Shown one piece after another: positions 5,203-62,547 of a DNA stretch of 64,000 nucleotides. This stretch comes from a virus: IMG/VR virus record IMGVR_UViG_3300033148_007360, positions 1 through 64,000 of that record. The stretch is one strand, 5' to 3'. The notes below the pieces were generated by a model, which was given only the letters and a program-made list of their open reading frames with translations, did no database searches and was not told the origin of the DNA. Numbering within the stretch: the stretch's first letter is position 1; each line of letters opens with the position of its first letter. A program made the translations under genes and the position numbers.

Positions 5203-5220
5203 CAAAAATACCCCCAGAAC

Positions 5221-5312
5221 GTTCATATTTCAATTCTAAGGCGTTTTTTATTTTTTAAGGGGGTAGACCCCTTAGAAACCCCTCTGAAGCCACACACGGC
5301 GAATATGGGCTT
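5221..5312 (-). repeat. Structured leader element, copy A
   Basis: One of five related intergenic elements. The gene-proximal arm on the plus strand reads CATATTTCAATTCTAAGGCG followed by T6, then hairpin AAGGGGG-TAG-ACCCCTT at 5257-5273, then a degenerate inverted arm ending GAATATGGGCTT. The distal end touches the stop codon of the 5311-5823 gene; the proximal end is about 20 bases before the 5202 start. Confidence 0.75.
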
Positions 5313-5823
5313 AGTGGATAGTATCATTACCTCTACCAAGAAACCCCCCACGCAAAAAAGCCCCCACATGACATTCATCATCATCATCATCGCCCTCAAG
5401 ACCCGAAACTATCCCATGAAGAATCGCCCTTACGATCTCCTCACCGGTCACCCTCACCTTACCAGAAATCGGCGCAACCTCGCACGCTTTGGCAACTGCA
5501 AGGTACGTAAGAACAATTAAAATCCACGCATCCTTCTTATCTTCAAGTTCCAGATTCCCCCCACCCCTCATCCTCTCCATAATCCCAACCCATAAGCAAT
5601 TATCTGCACCCTTGCAATCACTGCAATTCCCTTCACACGGATTACAGGCAGCCTGCCGCGCTACGAAATCAATAACTTCACCATCCCTCTGTATAACCTC
5701 TGGAGGAACTATCCGACGTATCTCCGCAATATTCTTCGCCACAAGCCCCTCCAAACAATACATTATTACACCTGCCGCACCAATGACAGAGATATCTCTA
5801 TATAACTTTTTCTCACCTTCCAT
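5311..5823 (-). CDS. Unknown protein with Cys cluster and acidic run
   Basis: About 170 residues; the start is uncertain (ATG 5823 or TTG 5835, both near AAGGGGG). A C-x2-C-x3-C-x2-C cluster (CNPCEGNCSDC) near residue 60 suggests metal binding, and a hydrophobic segment (AWILIVLTYLAVA) follows around residue 100. Near the C-terminus is a run of five Asp. No family recognised. It follows a strong terminator, so its own promoter is unclear. Confidence 0.5.
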   Translation of the reverse strand: MEGEKKLYRDISVIGAAGVIMYCLEGLVAKNIAEIRRIVPPEVIQRDGEVIDFVARQAACNPCEGNCSDCKGADNCLWVGIMERMRGGGNLELEDKKDAWILIVLTYLAVAKACEVAPISGKVRVTGEEIVRAILHGIVSGLEGDDDDDECHVGAFLRGGFLGRGNDTIH

Positions 5824-7496: not shown

Positions 7497-8270
7497 TTAA
7501 GTTGAAAATATCAACATCGGAACTTCCATCACCTTCTCGTGATAAAATCCATGCAACCACCTACCATCCTCACCCCACGCATCGCCATGATCGGAACACA
7601 TAACAACCTCCGAGTCTTTTACACAGTCCAGAAGTCTCATAACAACACCTTCAAGGTGCTCCAAACACTTTGCTTGGCGGATAAAACACGCATTGTAATC
7701 TCCAACTGGGTCTCCGTCATATCCACATTCACTGAATACATACGGATGGTGTGTCTCGGAAAAATTTATAAACAAAAAATAAGGACTATCCGAATCTGTA
7801 ATTTCACGAGCAGCCCATTTAACTTGTTTAGCCGCCGGACGCTGGGATGGATGCAAAAAATAAAAGTGGTCAAAAAGACCGGTAAAAACACTCCCCCCTA
7901 TAGTCTCAGGATTAAACCAATTCACGCCACCACTACCCAAAGTCCTGTATCCCAATTCAGAAAACCCCTGTGGAACAGTAAAAGCACGCAAGTTATACTT
8001 AGCCACAGCTTTACTTTCTGGTGTACGAACCCCCCACAACCTTTTACCCCTGCCACCCTTTACCCTTCTTGCCGCAGTATCATAAAACGAAGATCCGTCA
8101 TCTGTCTGAGGAAGCCGACCCGTAAAAAACGACCAATGCGCAGGGTAGGTGTAAGTTCCCTGTGTATAAGCTCGCTTCCACTCTCCCAACCCCTTCAACC
8201 GAGGAACACGCGCAGCCTCGAAAACATCCCACCGCAGAGAATCAAAAACTATAAATACTTGATTTTTCAT
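7497..8270 (-). CDS. Sulfatase / phosphoethanolamine-transferase superfamily enzyme
   Basis: 257 residues. It keeps the alkaline-phosphatase-superfamily metal motifs: VFDSLRWD (Asp10) and SDHGDAWGED (226-235), with a later HGFYHEK. The usual nucleophile position falls in TYTYPAHWSFFTG (Thr39/Thr41), where sulfatases have Cys or Ser and lipid-A-type transferases have Thr. That favours a phospho-group transferase or phosphodiesterase, but this is inference. Shorter than full transferases and without membrane helices, so cytoplasmic. Last enzyme of the glycan cassette. Confidence 0.65.
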   Translation of the reverse strand: MKNQVFIVFDSLRWDVFEAARVPRLKGLGEWKRAYTQGTYTYPAHWSFFTGRLPQTDDGSSFYDTAARRVKGGRGKRLWGVRTPESKAVAKYNLRAFTVPQGFSELGYRTLGSGGVNWFNPETIGGSVFTGLFDHFYFLHPSQRPAAKQVKWAAREITDSDSPYFLFINFSETHHPYVFSECGYDGDPVGDYNACFIRQAKCLEHLEGVVMRLLDCVKDSEVVMCSDHGDAWGEDGRWLHGFYHEKVMEVPMLIFST

Positions 8271-8282
8271 TTCCCTGCCATC

Positions 8283-9065
8283 CTACTCACCTACTAATCC
8301 TTTCAGAACACTGGGATACTCCCCCTTATATTCACATATCCCCTTACGTCGTCGTAACAACCGCTGAAAAAGCGGCATTTGTTCATAATTTTCCGGCCAT
8401 GCACACGTAGCACTCTCAATCTTCTTAGCCCATTTAAAATGTAAAAAAGCTGGCTTGTCTATAGAAACGGTTTTCCCGCGTGGCCCACAAAAACATTCTG
8501 TGAATTTGCCGTTTTTGTAAAAAGTCTTGTCCGTTACCTTAAATACACGGGGTTCCGCCCCCGTATATACCCTCTCCCCAACACGCCTCAACTCTTTTCC
8601 TACAATATCAACACCATACAGAGTAATGGTATCACACTTACCCTCTACTATTCTATCTTTAATCTCACGACCCAACCAATCCATCCCAACCATATCCCCA
8701 TCCCATTTGCACACCCAACTACAACTTGTTTTTGATAAGCACCAATTATAAAAATAAGTTCTACTATAAACAGTATCTTCTGGATTCTTTTCATACTCGG
8801 GCCCGTTCGCAAAACAATCAAATGGATACTGATATATCCTTACGGTATCAAGATTCATACTCCTGACGATTTCCTCCGAAGCATCTTTTGAATTGTTGAA
8901 CACAACCACTATCTCATCAATCCAATCTTTTATAGACAATAAACTGTAATAAATCCATTCCTCCTCATCCCTTATCCGTACCATGGCAGACACACCAGAT
9001 CTTCGATTCAAGGCTGAAATTTCAACGTTATAAGCATCAAAACCTTCCCTATTACATAACCTCAT
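8283..9065 (-). CDS. GT2-family glycosyltransferase
   Basis: 260 residues. MVRIRDEEEWIYYSLLSI and DEIVVVFNNSKD fit the start of a GT-A fold, and KWDGDMV (122-124 DGD) is the metal-binding DxD. Typical of glycosyltransferases acting on peptides or polysaccharides. The start overlaps the upstream methyltransferase stop by four bases (ATGA). Confidence 0.7.
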   Translation of the reverse strand: MRLCNREGFDAYNVEISALNRRSGVSAMVRIRDEEEWIYYSLLSIKDWIDEIVVVFNNSKDASEEIVRSMNLDTVRIYQYPFDCFANGPEYEKNPEDTVYSRTYFYNWCLSKTSCSWVCKWDGDMVGMDWLGREIKDRIVEGKCDTITLYGVDIVGKELRRVGERVYTGAEPRVFKVTDKTFYKNGKFTECFCGPRGKTVSIDKPAFLHFKWAKKIESATCAWPENYEQMPLFQRLLRRRKGICEYKGEYPSVLKGLVGE

Positions 9066-9784
9066 CCTGACCTCCGCAAAAAATATCTTCCAAGACTATT
9101 TCTAGTAAGAACCGTATCAACCACACTTTGAGGTACCCTACCTACCAGATTATATATCAAACCACTCTCCACCTCATTATATGGATATGGCGGCTTTTCC
9201 GCCAACCCATAAACATTGTGTTTATCTTGCCAAATGTTTCCAGCCGACACATCAAATCCAACCACCGCCAGAAGATATAACAACTGTGCCACATTCCACC
9301 CTGAATAAAAATGCCCGCTCACCGCTATGTCTTTGTAGAGGGGCACCACAACAGCAACGAAACCATGCGGTTTCAACGCACCATACACACGCCACAAGAG
9401 GTACATAGGTGAAAAACTATGTTCTAAGATGTGGTGTAACCAGACAATATCAACGCTTCCATCCCTAGGAATTAAATGCATATCCCCCTCTATCAACTTG
9501 ATGTTCTCCGCATGGGAAGCCAAGTTAAACATTTCATCCGTAGGAGACACATCATAACATACAACTTGAAAACATCGTTCCGAAAAGAAGCTCGTATGAA
9601 ATCCGTATCCAGGCCCCAGTTCCACCACAACAGAATCCTCCCGAACTGGCAACATCTTCAAAAAATGTTCGGACTTGCTATATAACCTTAGAGCCGCCTC
9701 TTTGTGATAGTTTTGATTTTTAACTTCCGTCCGCGGTACCCTACATACCCTATTGTACCAAGACAGAAAGTTGTTGAAACTCAT
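9062..9784 (-). CDS. Class I SAM-dependent methyltransferase
   Basis: 240 residues. Motif I VELGPGYG at residues 54-61, an acidic motif II (VVCYDVSP), the loop GDMHLIP, and HHILEHSFSP match Methyltransf_11 enzymes. Likely methylates a sugar or lipid intermediate of the surrounding glycan cassette. Confidence 0.75.
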   Translation of the reverse strand: MSFNNFLSWYNRVCRVPRTEVKNQNYHKEAALRLYSKSEHFLKMLPVREDSVVVELGPGYGFHTSFFSERCFQVVCYDVSPTDEMFNLASHAENIKLIEGDMHLIPRDGSVDIVWLHHILEHSFSPMYLLWRVYGALKPHGFVAVVVPLYKDIAVSGHFYSGWNVAQLLYLLAVVGFDVSAGNIWQDKHNVYGLAEKPPYPYNEVESGLIYNLVGRVPQSVVDTVLTRNSLGRYFLRRSG

Positions 9785-9794
9785 GACTACACCC

Positions 9795-10400
9795 TCACGA
9801 AAACTTCCGCAGGATAACCCCCCTCTTACATTTAGCCACCACTTTCAAATTAGGTAACACCCCATGTTCAATCTCGCGTAACACTCTGCCCGGACCGGGG
9901 AACCGACTGGAAAACACGTCATCAAGACTAATTATCCCACGAGGCGATAATACTTTAAACCAATTTTCCGTATCCCAGTTTACAGCCTCAAAACTGTGGT
10001 CGCCATCCACAAAAACAAAACTTACTTTACGAGGATAAAACAAGTTATATGCTTCCCTTGAAGTGGCGCAAATAAGATGATACCGATACGTAATATCCAC
10101 TACAGTCCGATGCTTCACAAACGAAGCAAAATGCTTTTCCTCGGAACTGTAAAACGGATCTATCCCCCATACATGCTTGTTTGACCCAATATGCTCAAGA
10201 ACCCTTGCTAAAAATAATCCGGTTCTCCCAGTCCTTACACCAACTTCAACAACATCACCAGAGATACCATCAATCCCCATCAAAAAGGAACCCATCAGCG
10301 CCGCAAACTCTTTCATGCCAGCAGCCACACCGTCTATTGGCGCTAAATCCTTAAACGCTTTATCCAACACTACATCAACATCCATCAATAAGCCATCCAC
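9795..10400 (-). CDS. Class I methyltransferase, TylF/CmcI-type
   Basis: 201 residues; start 10400, or 10385, both overlapping the upstream gene. Motif I VVEVGVRTGRTG (50-61), then WGIDPF and FVDGDHSFEAV (130-140), the metal-binding Asp pattern of macrocin-O-methyltransferase and Methyltransf_24 enzymes. A sugar O-methyltransferase role would fit its glycosyltransferase neighbours. Confidence 0.7.
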   Translation of the reverse strand: MDGLLMDVDVVLDKAFKDLAPIDGVAAGMKEFAALMGSFLMGIDGISGDVVEVGVRTGRTGLFLARVLEHIGSNKHVWGIDPFYSSEEKHFASFVKHRTVVDITYRYHLICATSREAYNLFYPRKVSFVFVDGDHSFEAVNWDTENWFKVLSPRGIISLDDVFSSRFPGPGRVLREIEHGVLPNLKVVAKCKRGVILRKFS

Positions 10401-11220
10401 ACCCTATTCTATGAAACCAGTATGTCAAATCCTGCCTGTCCTTTACTGGTATCTGCCTGTCCACTAAAGCTGCAAGAAGTTTTCCTTCCCTGCCACAATG
10501 ACTGTTCAATAAGCCATCGCCTAATGCAACGGTCGGTATCCCGGCCATCGTGGTCTCCAGTAAAACAGTGGAGTTTATACCAACAACTCCAGACGCATCC
10601 TTCGCGAAGTCTAGAGCATCTCCCTCTGAAACAATCCTATTTCGTTTTCTACGTGTAGAATAGTTTCCACCTTTATCACGGGGATGCTTCTTGAACACAA
10701 TCGGATCAGGATAAGTTTCCTCTACATAATCAATAAAACTCTGCATATCCTTAAAGGGTGAATGCTCCACAATATTTGTATCGCTGGCAAGCTGAAGAGG
10801 ACAGAACAAGTAAGAATCTGCCCCGGAATAAAACCTATCTCCAATATACTCTCTGGAAAACGAATGCATTCTGGAAATCTTATCGTGATCAACCCACGAC
10901 AAATCATCCTCGCAGAGGGATGACTTCGCGTTTATGCCCTTGCTATCTAAATGCCAGAATTTATTCTGAGGGAACCAACCCACCTCCATGATAGTGTAAC
11001 CCACCCCGTTCTCCGCTGCAATATTTAGAACTGAACGCGAGAACCTACAACTCCCATTCCAAATGAACACATGATAGGCATTCCTTATCCATTTCTTTAC
11101 ATCCGACTCCGAGGATGTGCGGCGCACATCCCACCCATTATCTTCCAAAAACCGTGGAAGGGCTTTAAACCACTCGAAATGGTTCTCGTGCTTATGATAG
11201 ATAAGGATTAGTTGTGTCAT
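10375..11220 (-). CDS. Capsule-polysaccharide (KpsS/Kdo-transferase-like) glycosyltransferase
   Basis: 281 residues. The pattern FCPLQLASDTN, then PIVFKKHPRD, then GINSTVLLETTMAGIP and VALGDG is the hallmark order of the capsule synthesis/export family that includes KpsS and KpsC. Such proteins transfer Kdo or related sugars. It overlaps both neighbours. A phage copy is unusual. Confidence 0.7.
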   Translation of the reverse strand: MTQLILIYHKHENHFEWFKALPRFLEDNGWDVRRTSSESDVKKWIRNAYHVFIWNGSCRFSRSVLNIAAENGVGYTIMEVGWFPQNKFWHLDSKGINAKSSLCEDDLSWVDHDKISRMHSFSREYIGDRFYSGADSYLFCPLQLASDTNIVEHSPFKDMQSFIDYVEETYPDPIVFKKHPRDKGGNYSTRRKRNRIVSEGDALDFAKDASGVVGINSTVLLETTMAGIPTVALGDGLLNSHCGREGKLLAALVDRQIPVKDRQDLTYWFHRIGCGWLIDGC

Positions 11221-11816
11221 GCGTACTTATTCAAAAATTCTTTTGTGCGTGGGTGGTATTGATGGAAATAACCGTCCACTACATCCCGTACAACTTTTAT
11301 CCCCGACTTTTGTGTCGCCTTGAAAAACCACGCATCCTCCCGGCCCCATTCTTTCCTCGTCTCATCCCACTTTCCAGTCTTCTCAAAATCCTTCCGAGTG
11401 ATGCCACATACACCATATCCCCACTTAGCCAAGACTTCGGGCTTCCCATCCTGATTCAACATTCGCACGATAGGAAAAAATGCCTGTCCGGCTCTTACCT
11501 TGGAATCAACCAACGATACAAAATTCTTAGGAAAGAGTAAGTCTGCATCAATAAACAGTACCTTATCGGCAGTCGAGAGACCAAATCCGGCGTTTAACCC
11601 AACAGACCTGTTGAAGGGCCTTTCAATCTGCTTGAAATGAAACGAGAACGGCGAATTCTTAGTTACCCCGAACACGTCGCCATCATCCGAATAGAAATCC
11701 ACAACTACAAATTCCACATCCCCCGTATAATCCTGCCGGGAAAGAGTATCCACCATTTTAGTAAAATTTTTAAACCGATTACACACGGTTACGATGACTG
11801 AAATCGCCACAAGCAC
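11217..11816 (-). CDS. GT2-family glycosyltransferase with galactosyltransferase-type C-terminus
   Basis: 199 residues. ISVIVTVCNRF start, NRSVGLNAGF, DxD at FIDADLLF (90-92), and WGREDAWFF near residue 155, the ED-containing motif of the C-terminal galactosyltransferase region. Overlaps the next gene by ATGA. Probably retains full activity. Confidence 0.75.
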   Translation of the reverse strand: MLVAISVIVTVCNRFKNFTKMVDTLSRQDYTGDVEFVVVDFYSDDGDVFGVTKNSPFSFHFKQIERPFNRSVGLNAGFGLSTADKVLFIDADLLFPKNFVSLVDSKVRAGQAFFPIVRMLNQDGKPEVLAKWGYGVCGITRKDFEKTGKWDETRKEWGREDAWFFKATQKSGIKVVRDVVDGYFHQYHPRTKEFLNKYA

Positions 11817-11822
11817 ACTCCT

Positions 11823-12488
11823 CTAAGTAGGCCACCGCCCATGCCTCGCATAATAAATCATAGCGTGGTAGTCTTTGTAGGACTTCAAAAAATCCAAAGA
11901 CAAGGGGTGGTCTGGCCCGTTCAACGCCTCCCACCCCTTATCAATCCAAACTATCTTCCCTCGCTTTGAAACAATATTATGCTGGTAACGAGTCCAGCCA
12001 TATACAGTATGCGTACTGCCAATCCGCCCAGAAAACGCCGACTTCTTGGCCACAAAAATCCCTCCTACATGTTGAGCTATCTTGTAACCCTTAACTCTAT
12101 CGCCCTTCGGAGGAAACCCTGCAACTAATATATTTTTGTCTGTCGCCTCCTGACTGGATAGAAAATTCAAACCATAATCAAGCCAGCCAACCGGCACTAG
12201 AACATCATTGTCAACCTTTGCAAAAAACTCGAAGTCTCCGGGGACATCAAACAGAACCTTGTCCATGCAGGACGCCACACCAATAGGCTTCTTATGCTCT
12301 ATAAAATGAGAAATCTGCGGAAAATCGCTTGCTATTCCTCGTAGTCTCGCAGACATCTCAGGTGAGTTACCGTCACTTATAAAAATAAACTCGACATCAT
12401 CGAAGCAAGTGGCAGCCAACAACCGATACAACGACAGTTCCGTATAGTGCGGACGTTCCCGCGCAAACATACAAAGGCGTACCCGCAT
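11823..12488 (-). CDS. GT2-like glycosyltransferase
   Basis: 221 residues. FIFISDGNSP, and KVDNDVLVP (DND at 93-95) as the metal-binding motif, give a GT-A-type protein. It is first among the tightly packed glycan genes. Acceptor unknown. Confidence 0.65.
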   Translation of the reverse strand: MRVRLCMFARERPHYTELSLYRLLAATCFDDVEFIFISDGNSPEMSARLRGIASDFPQISHFIEHKKPIGVASCMDKVLFDVPGDFEFFAKVDNDVLVPVGWLDYGLNFLSSQEATDKNILVAGFPPKGDRVKGYKIAQHVGGIFVAKKSAFSGRIGSTHTVYGWTRYQHNIVSKRGKIVWIDKGWEALNGPDHPLSLDFLKSYKDYHAMIYYARHGRWPT

Positions 12489-13412: not shown

Positions 13413-13658
13413 CTAATGCTGACGTCTCTTGAAGTTCTTTTCGAGCCACTTGCTCTGCTCCTCCAAAGGCACACTCCGAAAATACTTTTCAGGACACAGA
13501 GACGGAACCAGCGCTCTTAATTCAGCTTGCGACAGTTCCGCACTCGTATAAATCCTTCCCTCCAGATTTTTACCCTTGACGTCCTTTTGGAGATCTACCG
13601 CCCACGGAACGCGGTTGCTCTTTCCACAAAAACGATTCCTGAACTTCCTTTTACTCAT
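13413..13658 (-). CDS. Small protein of unknown function
   Basis: 81 residues, basic N-terminus (MSKRKFRNRF). Its ATG overlaps the stop of the upstream gene by eight bases. No family recognised; operon position between an unknown gene and a DNA methylase. Confidence 0.5.
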   Translation of the reverse strand: MSKRKFRNRFCGKSNRVPWAVDLQKDVKGKNLEGRIYTSAELSQAELRALVPSLCPEKYFRSVPLEEQSKWLEKNFKRRQH

Positions 13659-14487
13659 TAGAAATCAACCACTGAAAAGCATCATCTGGAGACACACCGT
13701 TTTCAATCATCCTACAGGCTTCATTTACCCGCTCGCTCCCATACTTGGCGGAAAACGCCGAGGCAGGCCCGGGTGGGCCGTCAGGCTTCCTCCCGCCGAG
13801 ATGAGCCAACCATCCAGAATTACCAGACGGATAATTCTCAGGATTGTAAGGGTTTACAACATCGGCCCAGAAAAACTTGGGCCGCAGAACGGCGGACTCT
13901 TGGGGTATGCCCTCCGGGGAAGCCTCGGGAGCACCAGCAGGAGCAATACGCAAGGGGTGGTACCGTTTCCATTCAAACCAGCCATCTGCAAACGTTTTCT
14001 GGGAAACGTGCCTAGCCAGCTCCCGCTTCCCACCATCATGAAACAGCAGGAAAATGCCATCATCCCAGTCTCCCCACAAAACACTCTCCTGACAGAACTT
14101 CCGCAGGATCTTTTCTGCATCACCCCGTGACATCCGGGGGACAAACAGAGAAGGCTCAAATATCGCTCGCTCAGCCCCCTTGGCCTTATACGCTCCCCTC
14201 CCGGTAACATACCCGTATCCCATTGACCTCACCGTCCTTTGAAGCCTCTCGTAAGCCCTGTTGTTATACTCGTTAAGATCTTGGGGCCTTTTAATATCAG
14301 CCGCTTCAAAACACGGCTTGTTGGCTTCGGGCATCCGCCCGCTCGCATCATATCCGATATTCGCACTCACGAGCGCGAACGACTCTCCGCTCTGAATATG
14401 AGAAAGCAATCGCCCGAAAGAAGTCTCGGTTACAAACCGACCATCCCGTAACAGCAACTCTACATAAGTCCTGTCCTTTTCATCCAT
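13651..14487 (-). CDS. DUF3293-like unknown protein
   Basis: 278 residues. The N-terminal half has ALVSANIGYDASG, NRAYERLQRTVRSMG, GRGAYK and EPSLFVP, an order like DUF3293 proteins; the match is by eye. The C-terminal half ends in a helical segment (ACRMIENGVSPDDAF). First gene of the long operon leading into the glycan cassette, with its own promoter. Confidence 0.5.
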   Translation of the reverse strand: MDEKDRTYVELLLRDGRFVTETSFGRLLSHIQSGESFALVSANIGYDASGRMPEANKPCFEAADIKRPQDLNEYNNRAYERLQRTVRSMGYGYVTGRGAYKAKGAERAIFEPSLFVPRMSRGDAEKILRKFCQESVLWGDWDDGIFLLFHDGGKRELARHVSQKTFADGWFEWKRYHPLRIAPAGAPEASPEGIPQESAVLRPKFFWADVVNPYNPENYPSGNSGWLAHLGGRKPDGPPGPASAFSAKYGSERVNEACRMIENGVSPDDAFQWLISNE

Positions 14488-17177: not shown

Positions 17178-17198
17178 GCTGTCTCCTTTCCTCTCACA

Positions 17199-17275
17199 AA
17201 GCTCATATTTGAATTATGCAGCGCTTTCCATCCTTAAGGGGGTTATATACCCTCCGAAAACAATAAAGATGGCTT
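17199..17275 (-). repeat. Structured leader element, copy B
   Basis: The most degenerate of five copies. On the plus strand it starts AAGCTCATATTTGAATT, then AGCGCTTTCC, then hairpin AAGGGGG-TTATAT-ACCCTCC, and ends ATGGCTT. It lies 22 bases upstream of the 17177 start codon. Confidence 0.6.
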
Positions 17276-17295
17276 AGAACGAAAACATAGCCCTC

Positions 17296-17781
17296 TTACC
17301 GCCATTCCATTCCTATCACCCAATACCCCTCAGTATACAACAAATTTTCATCAATTTCAACCCCCGTGAGCGATTCCCAGACGGACTTCTTCGCATCCCG
17401 TTCCTCCCCAGTTAGTATCACCCTAAACTGCGATCCCCTTTCGTCATCAGTGGACAAGGCCACAGTAGGATAAAAACCTTTTGACATTGCAGTGAATAAC
17501 GCCTTGACCGCATCCCTATTCACAATAACAAGTTCCGGCAACCGCTGGCAAAAGAACTCCACAAGAAAAGAGTGAAGACTCTTGCCCGGCGTCTGGACTA
17601 AAGTCGTGTACCCCAACTCACTCTGTCCTTCGTACAACCGAGACACGTCATAGTTCCTGGAGACACACGCATAAATTCTACTCTCTTGGCTCGACCATAA
17701 CCTCCGCATTGTCCCACCGGACTTACCCACTAAATCCTCCGGTGAGTCCGCTACAACTAATCCAGTCTCACACTTAATCAT
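17296..17781 (-). CDS. Unknown protein downstream of HU-like gene
   Basis: 161 residues, alpha/beta composition, no motif recognised. Overlaps the HU-like gene by eight bases, so co-expressed with the terminase operon. Confidence 0.5.
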   Translation of the reverse strand: MIKCETGLVVADSPEDLVGKSGGTMRRLWSSQESRIYACVSRNYDVSRLYEGQSELGYTTLVQTPGKSLHSFLVEFFCQRLPELVIVNRDAVKALFTAMSKGFYPTVALSTDDERGSQFRVILTGEERDAKKSVWESLTGVEIDENLLYTEGYWVIGMEWR

Positions 17782-20029: not shown

Positions 20030-20564
20030 CCACTCCCTTTATCGAATCCTCGATAGCTGCCAGCGCCCCCCTGACCAGCTCTCGCTCTGAAGGGGATAAA
20101 GAGCGAAAGTGTCTCAACTCCTCCGGTTCGTCATTCTCTTTATTCTCTCCAACAACCTCGCCTTCAATAACTAAAGCTCCCCTTGCCGCCTGCCGCCGCA
20201 GGGATTCGATCTCACTACGCATTTTCAACGTCTGCCGCTGATTATCTATATGCTCCTTTAAACCTTTTAATATCACACCATAGGCCCGCACCACATCTGA
20301 ATACTCCGCATTTTCTATTCGGCTCGGACAAGTCAAAAAATCTTCCATCCGACTGGCAGCGCCCAGCATTCTTTCCACCCTCTCTATCTGAACCATAGCA
20401 GCAGCTATTAAGGAAACCTCCAACTTAGCCTCGTAGTTCTTTAATACGAACCTCACAGCATCCCTGGCACGCTCCACATCGGACTCTTTATTTGAAACGA
20501 CTCTGGCAATCACCCTTAAAGCGTCAACAGCCGTCCCGTCAAACTTTCTCTCATCACCGCTCAT
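20001..20564 (-). CDS. Putative terminase small subunit
   Basis: 187 residues, strongly helical, with charged N-terminus (ERARDAVRFVLKNYEAKLE) and very acidic C-terminus (DEEVEEDES). The call rests on size, helicity and overlap with the large subunit. No clear HTH seen. Confidence 0.5.
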   Translation of the reverse strand: MSGDERKFDGTAVDALRVIARVVSNKESDVERARDAVRFVLKNYEAKLEVSLIAAAMVQIERVERMLGAASRMEDFLTCPSRIENAEYSDVVRAYGVILKGLKEHIDNQRQTLKMRSEIESLRRQAARGALVIEGEVVGENKENDEPEELRHFRSLSPSERELVRGALAAIEDSIKGVDEEVEEDES

Positions 20565-20953
20565 CTAACCACATCCACCTTCAACCTCAAAGTCTCTTCA
20601 AAATACTCTTTAACCGCCTTGTATATCTTTCTTATTCCCGCTTCGGACAGAGAAAAATGACTAGCTAAATCAGCAACGACCTCACTCTCCGTATCCTTAC
20701 CCTCGTGTAACTTCACCCTGGAATAAATGGTAACATCCCTAGCAGCCCTCTCTAAAATATTCCTCGACGGAACCCGAAACTCACACCCCGAAAAAATATC
20801 CAAAAAATCCATCAATTTCTCTTTCCCGAATACTTCGTACAACTCCGGCAGTAACGAGAACTCGTCAAGGTAATATAAATAAACCATCACAGCATCCAAT
20901 TGGCTCCGAGTAACCGGATTCACCAGCAGCAGTTTTTGATCACCCTTCTTCAC
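20561..20953 (-). CDS. Helical protein with C-terminal HTH (sigma region 4-like?)
   Basis: 130 residues. GTG 20953 is chosen because it overlaps the upstream stop (GTGA) and follows GGGAG. A C-terminal HTH-like segment (VVADLASHFSLSEAGIRKIYKAV) suggests DNA binding. Translationally coupled to the sigma-region-2-like gene; together they could form a two-subunit transcription factor. Position just upstream of the terminase genes matches late regulators in other phages. Confidence 0.5.
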   Translation of the reverse strand: MKKGDQKLLLVNPVTRSQLDAVMVYLYYLDEFSLLPELYEVFGKEKLMDFLDIFSGCEFRVPSRNILERAARDVTIYSRVKLHEGKDTESEVVADLASHFSLSEAGIRKIYKAVKEYFEETLRLKVDVVR

Positions 20954-21549
20954 AGAGACTCCCGCAGATTTAACAATGTCATGCGGTAGGTAGCAACAAC
21001 CCACTCCCGCAAAAACTTTACTATACCTATATCAATTCTATAGAATTTAGATAAATACTTTACCTGCCCGTCCGCAATTGATCCATTATTCAACATGCCA
21101 AATAATGCTGCTGTGGCACTCCAGTACGGATCTCGAAATCTTATTCTCGACAGCACTTCATCCCGAACAACAGAACCCAGCTCACGGAGAAAAACATAAT
21201 CTATAGCAGTTGCCGGACTATATCCCTTATCATACGTCTCCAGCTCATACTGCTCTGGCACATCAATCCGGTTCTTACCCATAACACGATATACAGCAGC
21301 AATTGTAACCTTCGACAAATAAGCCTCTAGCCCCTCCTCCCGCTCAAAATATAATCTGTTACTGCCCATAACCCGAGTATATACTTGTATAAACGATTCC
21401 TGAACCACATCATCCCTAAGATGGAGTGCCACCTCTTTGGGTACCCTCGACTTTATAAACCGAAACAAATCACCGGCAAATTCATCCACCCGCTCCGAAA
21501 CTTCACCGCTGTTTATTATCTCCAACAGTCTTGACACATCAACCGTCAC
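20950..21549 (-). CDS. Sigma-factor-like protein (region 2 resemblance)
   Basis: 199 residues. Residues about 38-100 resemble ECF sigma region 2: LRDDVVQESFIQVYTRV, then GLEAYLSKVTIAAVYRVMGK. The C-terminal part (GQVKYLSKFYRIDIGIVKFL) may be a weak region 4. It could direct host RNA polymerase to phage promoters. GTG start follows AGGGGG. Confidence 0.6.
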   Translation of the reverse strand: MTVDVSRLLEIINSGEVSERVDEFAGDLFRFIKSRVPKEVALHLRDDVVQESFIQVYTRVMGSNRLYFEREEGLEAYLSKVTIAAVYRVMGKNRIDVPEQYELETYDKGYSPATAIDYVFLRELGSVVRDEVLSRIRFRDPYWSATAALFGMLNNGSIADGQVKYLSKFYRIDIGIVKFLREWVVATYRMTLLNLRESL

Positions 21550-36657: not shown

Positions 36658-36697
36658 TGTGGAATTCCTTACTCCGTAGGTTTAAATATGCCTCTGT

Positions 36698-36792
36698 AAG
36701 CTTCACATTTTGATTCTGTGGCGTTTTCTTTTTCTTATAAGGGAAAACCACTAGAAAAAAATAAAAACGCCTTAGAATTGAAATATGGGCTT
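36698..36792 (-). repeat. Structured leader element, copy C (clearest inverted repeat)
   Basis: On the plus strand the proximal arm (36698-36727) starts AAGCTTCACATTTTGATTCT and runs into GGCGTTTTC. The distal arm (about 36763-36792) is its imperfect inverse, reading AAAACGCC, then TTAGAATTGAAATATGGG, then CTT. The central part, AAGGGAAAACC, is less GC-rich than in other copies. It lies 41 bases upstream of the primase GTG. Confidence 0.75.
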
Positions 36793-36850
36793 TCTGGGGG
36801 CAATTTACACTCGCTGTATAATTCTAAATTACGCAAATTCATACCGCACA

Positions 36851-37461: not shown

Positions 37462-37672
37462 CCTTTCGGCCCCTCGGTAAGGTTCGGCTCAAGATGATAT
37501 CGCCACCCAAAAGTTCACACCAAGTGGGAAAACTACCTTCTTCAAAATCCACCGGATAGTGTAAGTTCACACCATAAAACCCGCAGTAGCGCTTCTCAAA
37601 GGTTTTGGATTCCCCGATTTTGTGATTACAAGGGCAATTCAGGCAACTTTCGATCTCATACTTTTTGCTCAT
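37454..37672 (-). CDS. Small Cys-rich protein
   Basis: 72 residues from ATG 37672. CLNCPCNH, YCGFYG and FPTWCEL form a spaced Cys pattern often seen in small phage zinc-binding proteins. Overlaps the end of the beta-clamp gene by 17 bases. Confidence 0.55.
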   Translation of the reverse strand: MSKKYEIESCLNCPCNHKIGESKTFEKRYCGFYGVNLHYPVDFEEGSFPTWCELLGGDIILSRTLPRGRKGE

Positions 37673-38795
37673 GTTCATGCCTCATGGTCATGATGATGTG
37701 TTCTCCCGATGGATGTTCAATTTTGACCAAACTCTTTTCAGCACTGTACAGTATCTTTACGCGGCTTGTCGGCACTGTCTTCAGGGCATCAAGGATATAG
37801 TTTCCGTTCAGGCAGATGTGCAAGTCTCCGCCATCCGGTTCTGCTATATTCAGAGCGCGGGATCCCCGTATGTCTTCCAAAGAAGATTTCGCCGTCAGGT
37901 AAAGAGTGGTGCCCTCTGTACGAAAGAAGGTAGTGCCGTCTTCGTTGGTTGCAGATACTTTTTTAACTGTCTGTATAAGCTCATCTTTATTACACGCGAA
38001 AGAGTGAGAACAAGGATGCTCTATATTTTTAACCACGCCGGTCGGGAAGTTGTCCTTTTCGTATGTAACAATTCCCAGGATAAAACCCTCGATGTTAAAC
38101 CAGAAATCCCGCTCGGTCGTTCCAAATTTTATACGTTTTGCGTTGTCGGGTAAAAATCCTAGCACCACCTTGAGCGCTTCGGCGTTCAGCAAGACAGGGT
38201 GGAGCGCGCCTTCACCTTCACACACTCCCCGTTCTCTAGCCAGCCGGTGTCCATCCGTAGCCGTAGCCTGTAAATGACCATTCACTGTTTCAACCAACAC
38301 ATAGTCGAGCATGTAACGCCTATCCCCCTTTTCGGAAACAGCGAAAAGGACATCCGACAAGACCCGCCGCAAATCCTTACTGCTGATGGTGTGAGAGATT
38401 TTCTCAACGTCGCTCTTAACGTCGGGGAGGGGAGGAAACTCGCTCGGTGGAAACCCCTTTATGCTGAAGGAAGTGCCGTCGGTGTCCGTAATCTCTAAGC
38501 TGAATTTACCTGATTCAGGCTCTCCACACTGTTCCAGTTGGAGGGGGCCGTCTGTTCTCTTAACCAACTGCTCCAACTTCCCGGCATCCACGGCGATCCC
38601 TAAAGAAGCATCCACTTCAGCCTCTAGACTTTGATGGATAAGAAATTGCAAGTTTGTTGATGTTAGTTGCAAACCCGCCCCGCCAGTTTCGATAAGAACA
38701 AAACCGAGTATGGGCATGGTGCGAGACTTTTTCTTCATGACTTTCTTGGCGTTCTTCAACGCTGCCAAGAGAGACTTTTTGCCTACTGTAACCAT
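37656..38795 (-). CDS. dnaN: DNA polymerase III beta sliding clamp
   Basis: 379 residues from ATG 38795 (GGGAGGTG upstream). Full bacterial-type clamp length. Domain landmarks: PILGFVLIET, FPPSEFPPLPD, ATDGHRLARERG, DNFPTGVV, and C-terminal HIIMTMRH. A complete DnaN-type clamp rather than a T4 gp45 type; it would tether the phage family A polymerase. Transcribed from its own consensus promoter. Confidence 0.9.
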   Translation of the reverse strand: MVTVGKKSLLAALKNAKKVMKKKSRTMPILGFVLIETGGAGLQLTSTNLQFLIHQSLEAEVDASLGIAVDAGKLEQLVKRTDGPLQLEQCGEPESGKFSLEITDTDGTSFSIKGFPPSEFPPLPDVKSDVEKISHTISSKDLRRVLSDVLFAVSEKGDRRYMLDYVLVETVNGHLQATATDGHRLARERGVCEGEGALHPVLLNAEALKVVLGFLPDNAKRIKFGTTERDFWFNIEGFILGIVTYEKDNFPTGVVKNIEHPCSHSFACNKDELIQTVKKVSATNEDGTTFFRTEGTTLYLTAKSSLEDIRGSRALNIAEPDGGDLHICLNGNYILDALKTVPTSRVKILYSAEKSLVKIEHPSGEHIIMTMRHEHEQKV

Positions 38796-38846
38796 TAGTT
38801 CACCTCCCATATCTGACATCTATGGCCCTCGCGCCGCTCTAGTTAC

Positions 38847-38875
38847 AATATAACACATTCTTCCACGGTTGTCAA
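38847..38875 (-). promoter_or_regulatory. Sigma-70-type promoter
   Basis: TTGACA at 38875-38870, 17-base spacer, TATATT at 38852-38847. Drives the clamp gene and following Cys-rich genes. Confidence 0.85.
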
Positions 38876-39678: not shown

Positions 39679-39707
39679 ATTATAACACTTTCCTACAAGC
39701 CTGTCAA
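39679..39707 (-). promoter_or_regulatory. Perfect-consensus sigma-70 promoter
   Basis: TTGACA at 39707-39702, 17-base spacer, TATAAT at 39684-39679: both hexamers and the spacing are consensus. Likely a strong early promoter for 39386-39646 and genes beyond. Confidence 0.9.
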
Positions 39708-41099: not shown

Positions 41100-41114
41100 C
41101 AATATACCTCCAGA

Positions 41115-41173
41115 AAGCCCACATTTCGTTTGTGTGGCGTTTTTTCTCCCTGAAGGGGGGTTACCCCTTGATT
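41115..41173 (-). repeat. Structured leader element, copy D
   Basis: Plus-strand proximal arm AAGCCCACATTTCGTTTGTG, then GGCGTTTTTTC, then hairpin AAGGGGGGTTACCCCTT. Instead of a plain inverted arm it runs into a strong terminator hairpin. Ends 15 bases before the DnaB-like start codon. Confidence 0.7.
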
Positions 41174-41218
41174 GAAAATAAAAGCGGCTCACAAGGCGAT
41201 TGTGAAGCCCGTGAGCCG
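41174..41218 (-). terminator. Intrinsic terminator
   Basis: CGGCTCAC/GTGAGCCG 8-bp stem (41185-41192 with 41211-41218) followed on the minus strand by CTTTTATTTTC. Follows the 41230-41514 gene and separates it from the DnaB-type helicase gene. Confidence 0.85.
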
Positions 41219-62411: not shown

Positions 62412-62448
62412 AATTGACCTCCTTCTGACTTTTATTTAGCCCCAATTT

Positions 62449-62541
62449 GGGCCATATTCGCTTTGTGTGACGTTTTTTCTTTTCGCAAGGGGGATCCCCC
62501 CCGAAAAGATTCAAAGCCCGCAGAATCGAAATATGAGGCTT
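62449..62541 (-). repeat. Structured leader element, copy E
   Basis: Plus-strand proximal arm GGGCCATATTCGCTTTGTG, then GACGTTTTTTC, hairpin GGGGGATCCCCCC (centre at about 62495), then distal arm ending GAATCGAAATATGAGGCTT. The distal arm itself can form AAGCC/GGGCTT followed by T-rich sequence on the minus strand. 38 bases upstream of the 62411 start. Confidence 0.75.
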
Positions 62542-62547
62542 ACAGAG

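Follow-up and report, generated by a model that had tools for sequence, protein, structure and literature searches.

Intergenic elements at operon boundaries

The IMG/VR virus record IMGVR_UViG_3300033148_007360 (99,067 bp), the first 64 kb of which form the window analyzed here, contains seven copies of an intergenic element, six of them built from two inverted arms. Comparison of these sequences leads us to propose, with a probability of about 0.4, that the element serves as a boundary or operator site in DNA, located at transcription-unit ends and probably recognized by a host factor. The points in favor are the seven intergenic copies, a clean reversed-sequence control, the fixed spacing of the arms and their placement between stop and start codons. 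The left arm would open the downstream operon, while the right arm, the same motif reversed, would close the upstream operon, with a GC hairpin in between and a T-run in the right arm that would help to end the upstream transcript.

Nearly all genes of the record lie on the minus strand. The window has genes for DNA polymerase, primase, DnaB-like and other helicases, a sliding clamp, and SbcCD-like and UvsX-like proteins, in addition to tail genes. No close relatives of the phage were returned by an IMG/VR search with the clamp or helicase protein, and for the DnaB-like helicase the best listed phage proteins, from Bacillus and Lysinibacillus phages, reach 28.5% identity at most.

Element copies and architecture

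We made a profile of 34 positions from the arms and used it to rescan the full record. Ten arms scored between 30.6 and 43.3 bits, every one within the seven elements, which are located at 5.2 (A), 17.2 (B), 36.7 (C), 41.1 (D), 62.4 (E), 76.25 (F) and 87.8 kb (G). Thirteen profile windows in the record exceeded 10 bits, and the best score in the reversed-sequence control was 11.1 bits. The original prediction described one multi-copy architecture at operon starts that is explained by no gene, and both the profile and the coordinates bear this out. All five copies that it reported were recovered in place, but its count holds for the window only: the paired element F (76,251-76,350) and the single arm of element G (87,808) lie beyond it.

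Each left arm lies on the minus strand ahead of a gene, and each right arm on the plus strand. The left arm of element A (5212-5249, 42.7 bits) reads AAAACGCCTTAGAATTGAAATATG on the gene-sense strand and stands 21 nt before an ATG; it is followed by a GGGGG/CCCCT hairpin (5250-5281) and by an inverted, degenerate right arm (5282-5319, 7.6 bits) whose distance to the upstream stop codon is 4 nt. Element B is similar, with a left arm (17192-17229, 33.7 bits) 26 nt before an ATG, a central hairpin region (17230-17263) and a right arm that is again degenerate and weak by profile (17264-17301, 8.3 bits). Element C precedes the GTG start of the primase gene by 46 nt and has a left arm at 36692-36729 (39.0 bits), a centre with a weak hairpin (36730-36761) and a right arm at 36762-36799 (43.1 bits). 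In element D, the left arm (41108-41145, 42.5 bits) lies 20 nt before the ATG of the DnaB-like helicase gene, and a GGGGGG/CCCC hairpin (41146-41178) separates it from the right arm (41179-41216, 23.1 bits). Element E lies between a tail-tube gene, whose stop is 13 nt from the right arm (62510-62547, 33.3 bits), and a baseplate-hub-like tail gene, whose ATG is 41 nt from the left arm (62441-62478, 30.6 bits); its centre is a GGGGG/CCCCC hairpin (62479-62509).

Measured between plus- and minus-strand 14-mers, the spacing of the inverted arms is 70 bp in A, 72 in B, 70 in C, 71 in D, 69 in E and 70 in F, and thus stays at 69-72 bp although the centres of these six paired copies diverge. Five of these copies (A, B, D, E and F) have the central GGGG/CCCC hairpin, which is weak in C. 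Paired elements take up almost the whole gap from the upstream stop codon to the next ribosome-binding site, and in five of six the distance from the end of the right arm to the upstream stop is 4-26 nt, the exception being C (125 nt). On the other side, the motif stands near start codons as predicted, but the range is slightly wider than the 15-45 bases first given, at 20-52 nt on the minus strand when F (52 nt) and G (about 47 nt) are included.

Distribution in other phages and replicons

Related motifs, reading AAAACNNCTTAGAATNG followed by AAATATG or MTTACAG, were found in other phages, chiefly between genes. Carriers include Vequintavirinae, T5-like phages, Queuovirinae, jumbo phages and an Enterococcus phage. 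BLAST with the arm gave weak intergenic matches in Erwinia phages Hena1 and Pecta and in Enterococcus phage A40. A combined query of Hena1 and Pecta matched 397 phage records (291 of them Vibrio phages, mostly near-identical), with strong matches in Vequintavirinae and further members among T5-like phages, Queuovirinae, Barbavirus, Otagovirus, RaK2, VP4B and an Alteromonas phage. The exact degenerate arm pattern occurs in six IMG/VR stretches, most of which are intergenic relatives of the arm, and just once in bacterial and archaeal genomes totalling 257 Gb, in a coding position and probably by chance. When two mismatches were allowed, the 17-mer matched 36 times in 16 records, versus one match for the reversed control, and IMG/VR gave twenty further stretches. 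All matches above 20 bits in five other phage genomes were intergenic, the Pecta match overlapping an over-extended open reading frame only, and the reversed control had none above 11 bits.

The paired layout is repeated in Pectobacterium phage phiTE, around the hairpin AAGGTGATAAATCACCTT, and in phage A40, ahead of a DNA helicase gene. Many other phages have single intergenic copies, often about 40 nt past an ordinary terminator, and some copies sit in long non-coding stretches with no gene nearby. The orientation of the motif relative to flanking genes in other phages is biased, not fixed, with 15 both-sense, 6 both-antisense, 8 convergent and 6 divergent cases, the genes at most loci being our own open reading frame calls. 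No common protein was detected by BLASTp (E ≤ 1e-3) across five carriers compared with this phage, and a literature search by motif sequence returned no phage paper.

Two classes of motif are distinguished, the window class reading AAAACGCCTTAGAATYGAAATRTG and the gamma class reading TAAAACNNCTTAGAATNGMTTACAG, with the first half in common. The gamma-class motif forms a partial dyad, TAAAACNNCTTAGAAT-N-GMTTACAGNNGCTTTTA, and also contains a direct repeat of about 10 bp (CTTAGAA / MTTACAG). Position, orientation and the paired layout in phiTE and A40 make homology of the two classes likely; the bridge between them began from single BLAST matches with E values of about 1-3, which alone are at chance level. 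A profile made from other phages only ranked window arms 1-3 of 198,070 positions, a test that is partly circular because the top three ranks share the seed used to find those phages, and the first half of this profile placed arms at ranks 1-5, 7, 9 and 11.

A gamma-class motif is also present on Arsenophonus nasoniae plasmid pArsFIN3 (76751-76780), between a parM/partition operon and a convergent gene. The plasmid also encodes a holin and a lysozyme, and such matches were seen on 24 Arsenophonus plasmids.

RNA structure and RNA signals

The element had been proposed to be a structured leader, but covariation, arm permutation and folding z-scores do not support a structured RNA. Over the six paired copies, the covariation term of RNAalifold was unfavorable (+2.44 kcal/mol), and instead of compensatory pairing between arms, native arm pairs proved less complementary than cross-element pairs (rank 719 of 720 permutations). 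On these two analyses, a long hairpin joining the arms is rejected. The motif region in 36 relatives folds no better than its shuffles (mean z 0.03 on one strand and -0.08 on the other), outer-stem covariation is absent in the gamma class (flank swapping in relatives, P 0.52), and a local hairpin inside the arms shows a weak tendency (P ~0.04). Rfam 15 gave no gathering-level match in the window and nothing credible at E ≤ 1 in the element loci. Because a folding or covariation signal is missing, each arm looks like an individual sequence-specific site rather than half of an RNA structure, and would be recognized mainly as double-stranded DNA.

The motif could still act in RNA as a linear or weakly folded leader signal in the nascent transcript, read by the host transcription or translation machinery, for instance in processive antitermination of a kind that is put- or boxA-like but neither. 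We consider this unlikely. A target in the host machinery would suit unrelated phages without a common protein, the end of the motif is often the ribosome-binding site, and the excess of sense over antisense copies described above is in the expected direction. By inspection, the motif in T5-like phages often lies about 25-35 nt past a sigma-70-like -10. However, no promoter stands at a constant upstream distance in 35 instances, and full-strength antisense copies exist in elements C and E and in phiTE, to which the lack of covariation and folding signal must be added.

A put-type antiterminator, one of the candidates originally named, was rejected. In antiterminators of this type, the nascent RNA binds the zinc-binding domain of the RNA polymerase beta' subunit. 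The putL and putR antiterminator RNAs of phage HK022 are about 70 nt long, with two hairpins, and act at the starts of phage early transcripts (PMC9378689). The element is comparable in size, transcript-start location and two hairpins, but has no conserved RNA structure. HK022 putL, located in NC_002166 by 26 of 26 published residues, lacks the motif and has no sequence in common with the element; HK022 as a whole gave no motif match, and the two supported stem-loops were not found in the element.

Promoters and terminators

The motif might instead be a phage promoter, with TAGAAT as the -10 and transcripts starting from the TTACAG end, which we regard as quite unlikely. In 35 instances the sigma-70 score is consistently raised at the motif's TAGAAT alone (mean 4.9 vs -2.8), and the motif stands at operon starts, often directly past a terminator. 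Yet copies D and E have ACAAAC or ACAAAG in place of TAGAAT and so lack the invariant -10 bases, there is no conserved -35, the transcript start would fall at the ribosome-binding site, and strong conservation past the -10 is unexpected for sigma-70. A consistent sigma-70 promoter, with -35 and -10 at 16-18 bp in every copy, was not found: none was listed in C or D, and in relatives TAGAAT alone scores, without a -35. The earlier statement that no consensus sigma-70 promoter coincides with the element agrees with the lack of a strong hexamer pair listed in C or D. Its suggestion of a promoter for a sigma-like factor gained no positive evidence, as no sigma factor or RNA polymerase was seen among the proteins scanned, which are part of the gene set, and related motifs occur in phages that have no detectable protein in common with this one. 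The promoter reported for Vequintavirinae is an ordinary sigma-70 promoter that differs from the motif (PMC7344957).

Near-perfect sigma-70 promoters (11 and 12 of 12) do occur in the window, on the minus strand at 38847-38875 and 39679-39707, in intergenic gaps without the element. Set beside the element-bearing gaps, this suggests two classes of operon start.

We judge it very unlikely that the arms are ordinary intrinsic terminators, one per strand, that are alike by descent. T-runs do follow the arms, and element D has features of this kind: its right arm on the minus strand is a strong hairpin (local stem energy -8.4 kcal/mol) with a T-run directly past the upstream stop, and its left arm is the sole terminator-like arm among those of C and D in a generic scan (plus strand). 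Most arms nevertheless have a weak stem or none (energies near 0 to -4), the T-runs of left arms lie on the gene-free strand, and conservation of the loop sequence among unrelated phages is not a property of terminators. A GC-rich stem with a T-run in every arm was not observed, stems ranging from 0.0 to -8.4 kcal/mol.

Mobile cassettes, other repeated sites and a probable host factor

The right arm of C and the left arm of F (at 76,251) are identical over the 34-nt profile window, with about 50 bp shared by eye. C is flipped relative to F, and therefore the element exists in both orientations relative to genes. Such sharing would suit an intergenic cassette that is mobile or spread by recombination and moves together with gene modules, as would two arm subtypes that recombine between elements and a patchy occurrence across phage lineages. 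We find this reading rather improbable: no target-site duplication is seen by eye in the flanks, no mobilizing gene was identified, and copies stand at equivalent gene boundaries in unrelated phages, a placement that points to function. Spread of this kind has been proposed for the promoter/stem-loop cassettes (PeSL) of T4-type phages, which carry a sigma-70 early promoter. Both these and the element are repeated intergenic cassettes that combine a terminator with regulatory sequence, but the element has no consistent promoter of this type, and its conserved part is a different sequence, spread across unrelated phages and without a match in T4.

Stoperators of mycobacteriophage L5 are read by the phage's own repressor. 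Like the element, they occur in several copies as short, asymmetric stretches of DNA within small gaps between genes. For the element, no protein was found in common among the carriers compared, and many carriers belong to lytic lineages.

The boundary-site reading is favored because conservation is seen in sequence but not in structure, and the five carriers compared with this phage have no protein common to all, a combination that argues for a DNA recognition site of a trans-acting, probably host, factor. This factor would more likely be a host protein of wide conservation than one specific to the phage; by binding, it would insulate transcription where operons start and end, or set its timing. 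One point against a host-protein reader is that sites should then occur on host chromosomes, whereas BLAST matched just 2 of 5,426 E. coli genomes. The mixed orientation in other phages and the copies in long non-coding stretches also count against the boundary reading. The sharing of a near-invariant motif of 17-33 bp by phages that have no common protein points to a common bacterial target, and identifying this target would reveal how operon boundaries are set in many lytic phages.

The T5 injection-stop region

Phage T5 (AY543070) contains degenerate copies at 9343 (18.3 bits), 5275 (5.1 bits) and 6264 (0.8 bits), the latter two resting on context, not score. The copy at 9343 lies in the annotated injection stop signal region (9140-10149), where the motif has no assigned function as far as searched, and further copies lie in the same terminal repeat. 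Tentatively, and with less confidence than we place in the boundary reading for this phage, a single cis-element of ancient origin may mark transcription-unit boundaries in many unrelated tailed phages, this T5 region included. Its reader would be a conserved bacterial factor, and the element may have gone unnoticed because it is short, non-coding and forms no stable RNA. Identifying the common bacterial target would also give a testable function to part of this long-studied region.

T5-like phages have an SOS-box-like palindrome, CTGTATAAATATACAG, at a fixed distance past the motif: 39 nt in My1 and Vibrio 70E37.1 and about 68 nt in T5, where it occurs at 9411 and 6213. This association is limited to T5-like phages. 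The T5 injection-stop region also has DnaA-box-like and Fur-box-like repeats and repeats of GTGCAAATCCGACA.

Other genes

The phage has two distinct sliding-clamp genes (record 91263-92372; window 37656-38819), a DNA polymerase III beta-type clamp and a phrog_947 processivity factor. A cluster of sulfatase-like, glycosyltransferase, methyltransferase and capsule-synthesis-like genes occupies 7497-12488 of the window. A weak match to the S-adenosylmethionine lyase family at 13651-14487 marks a possible anti-restriction gene, and a Mor-like transcription activator at 20561-21004, slightly below the Pfam cut-off, is a possible late regulator.
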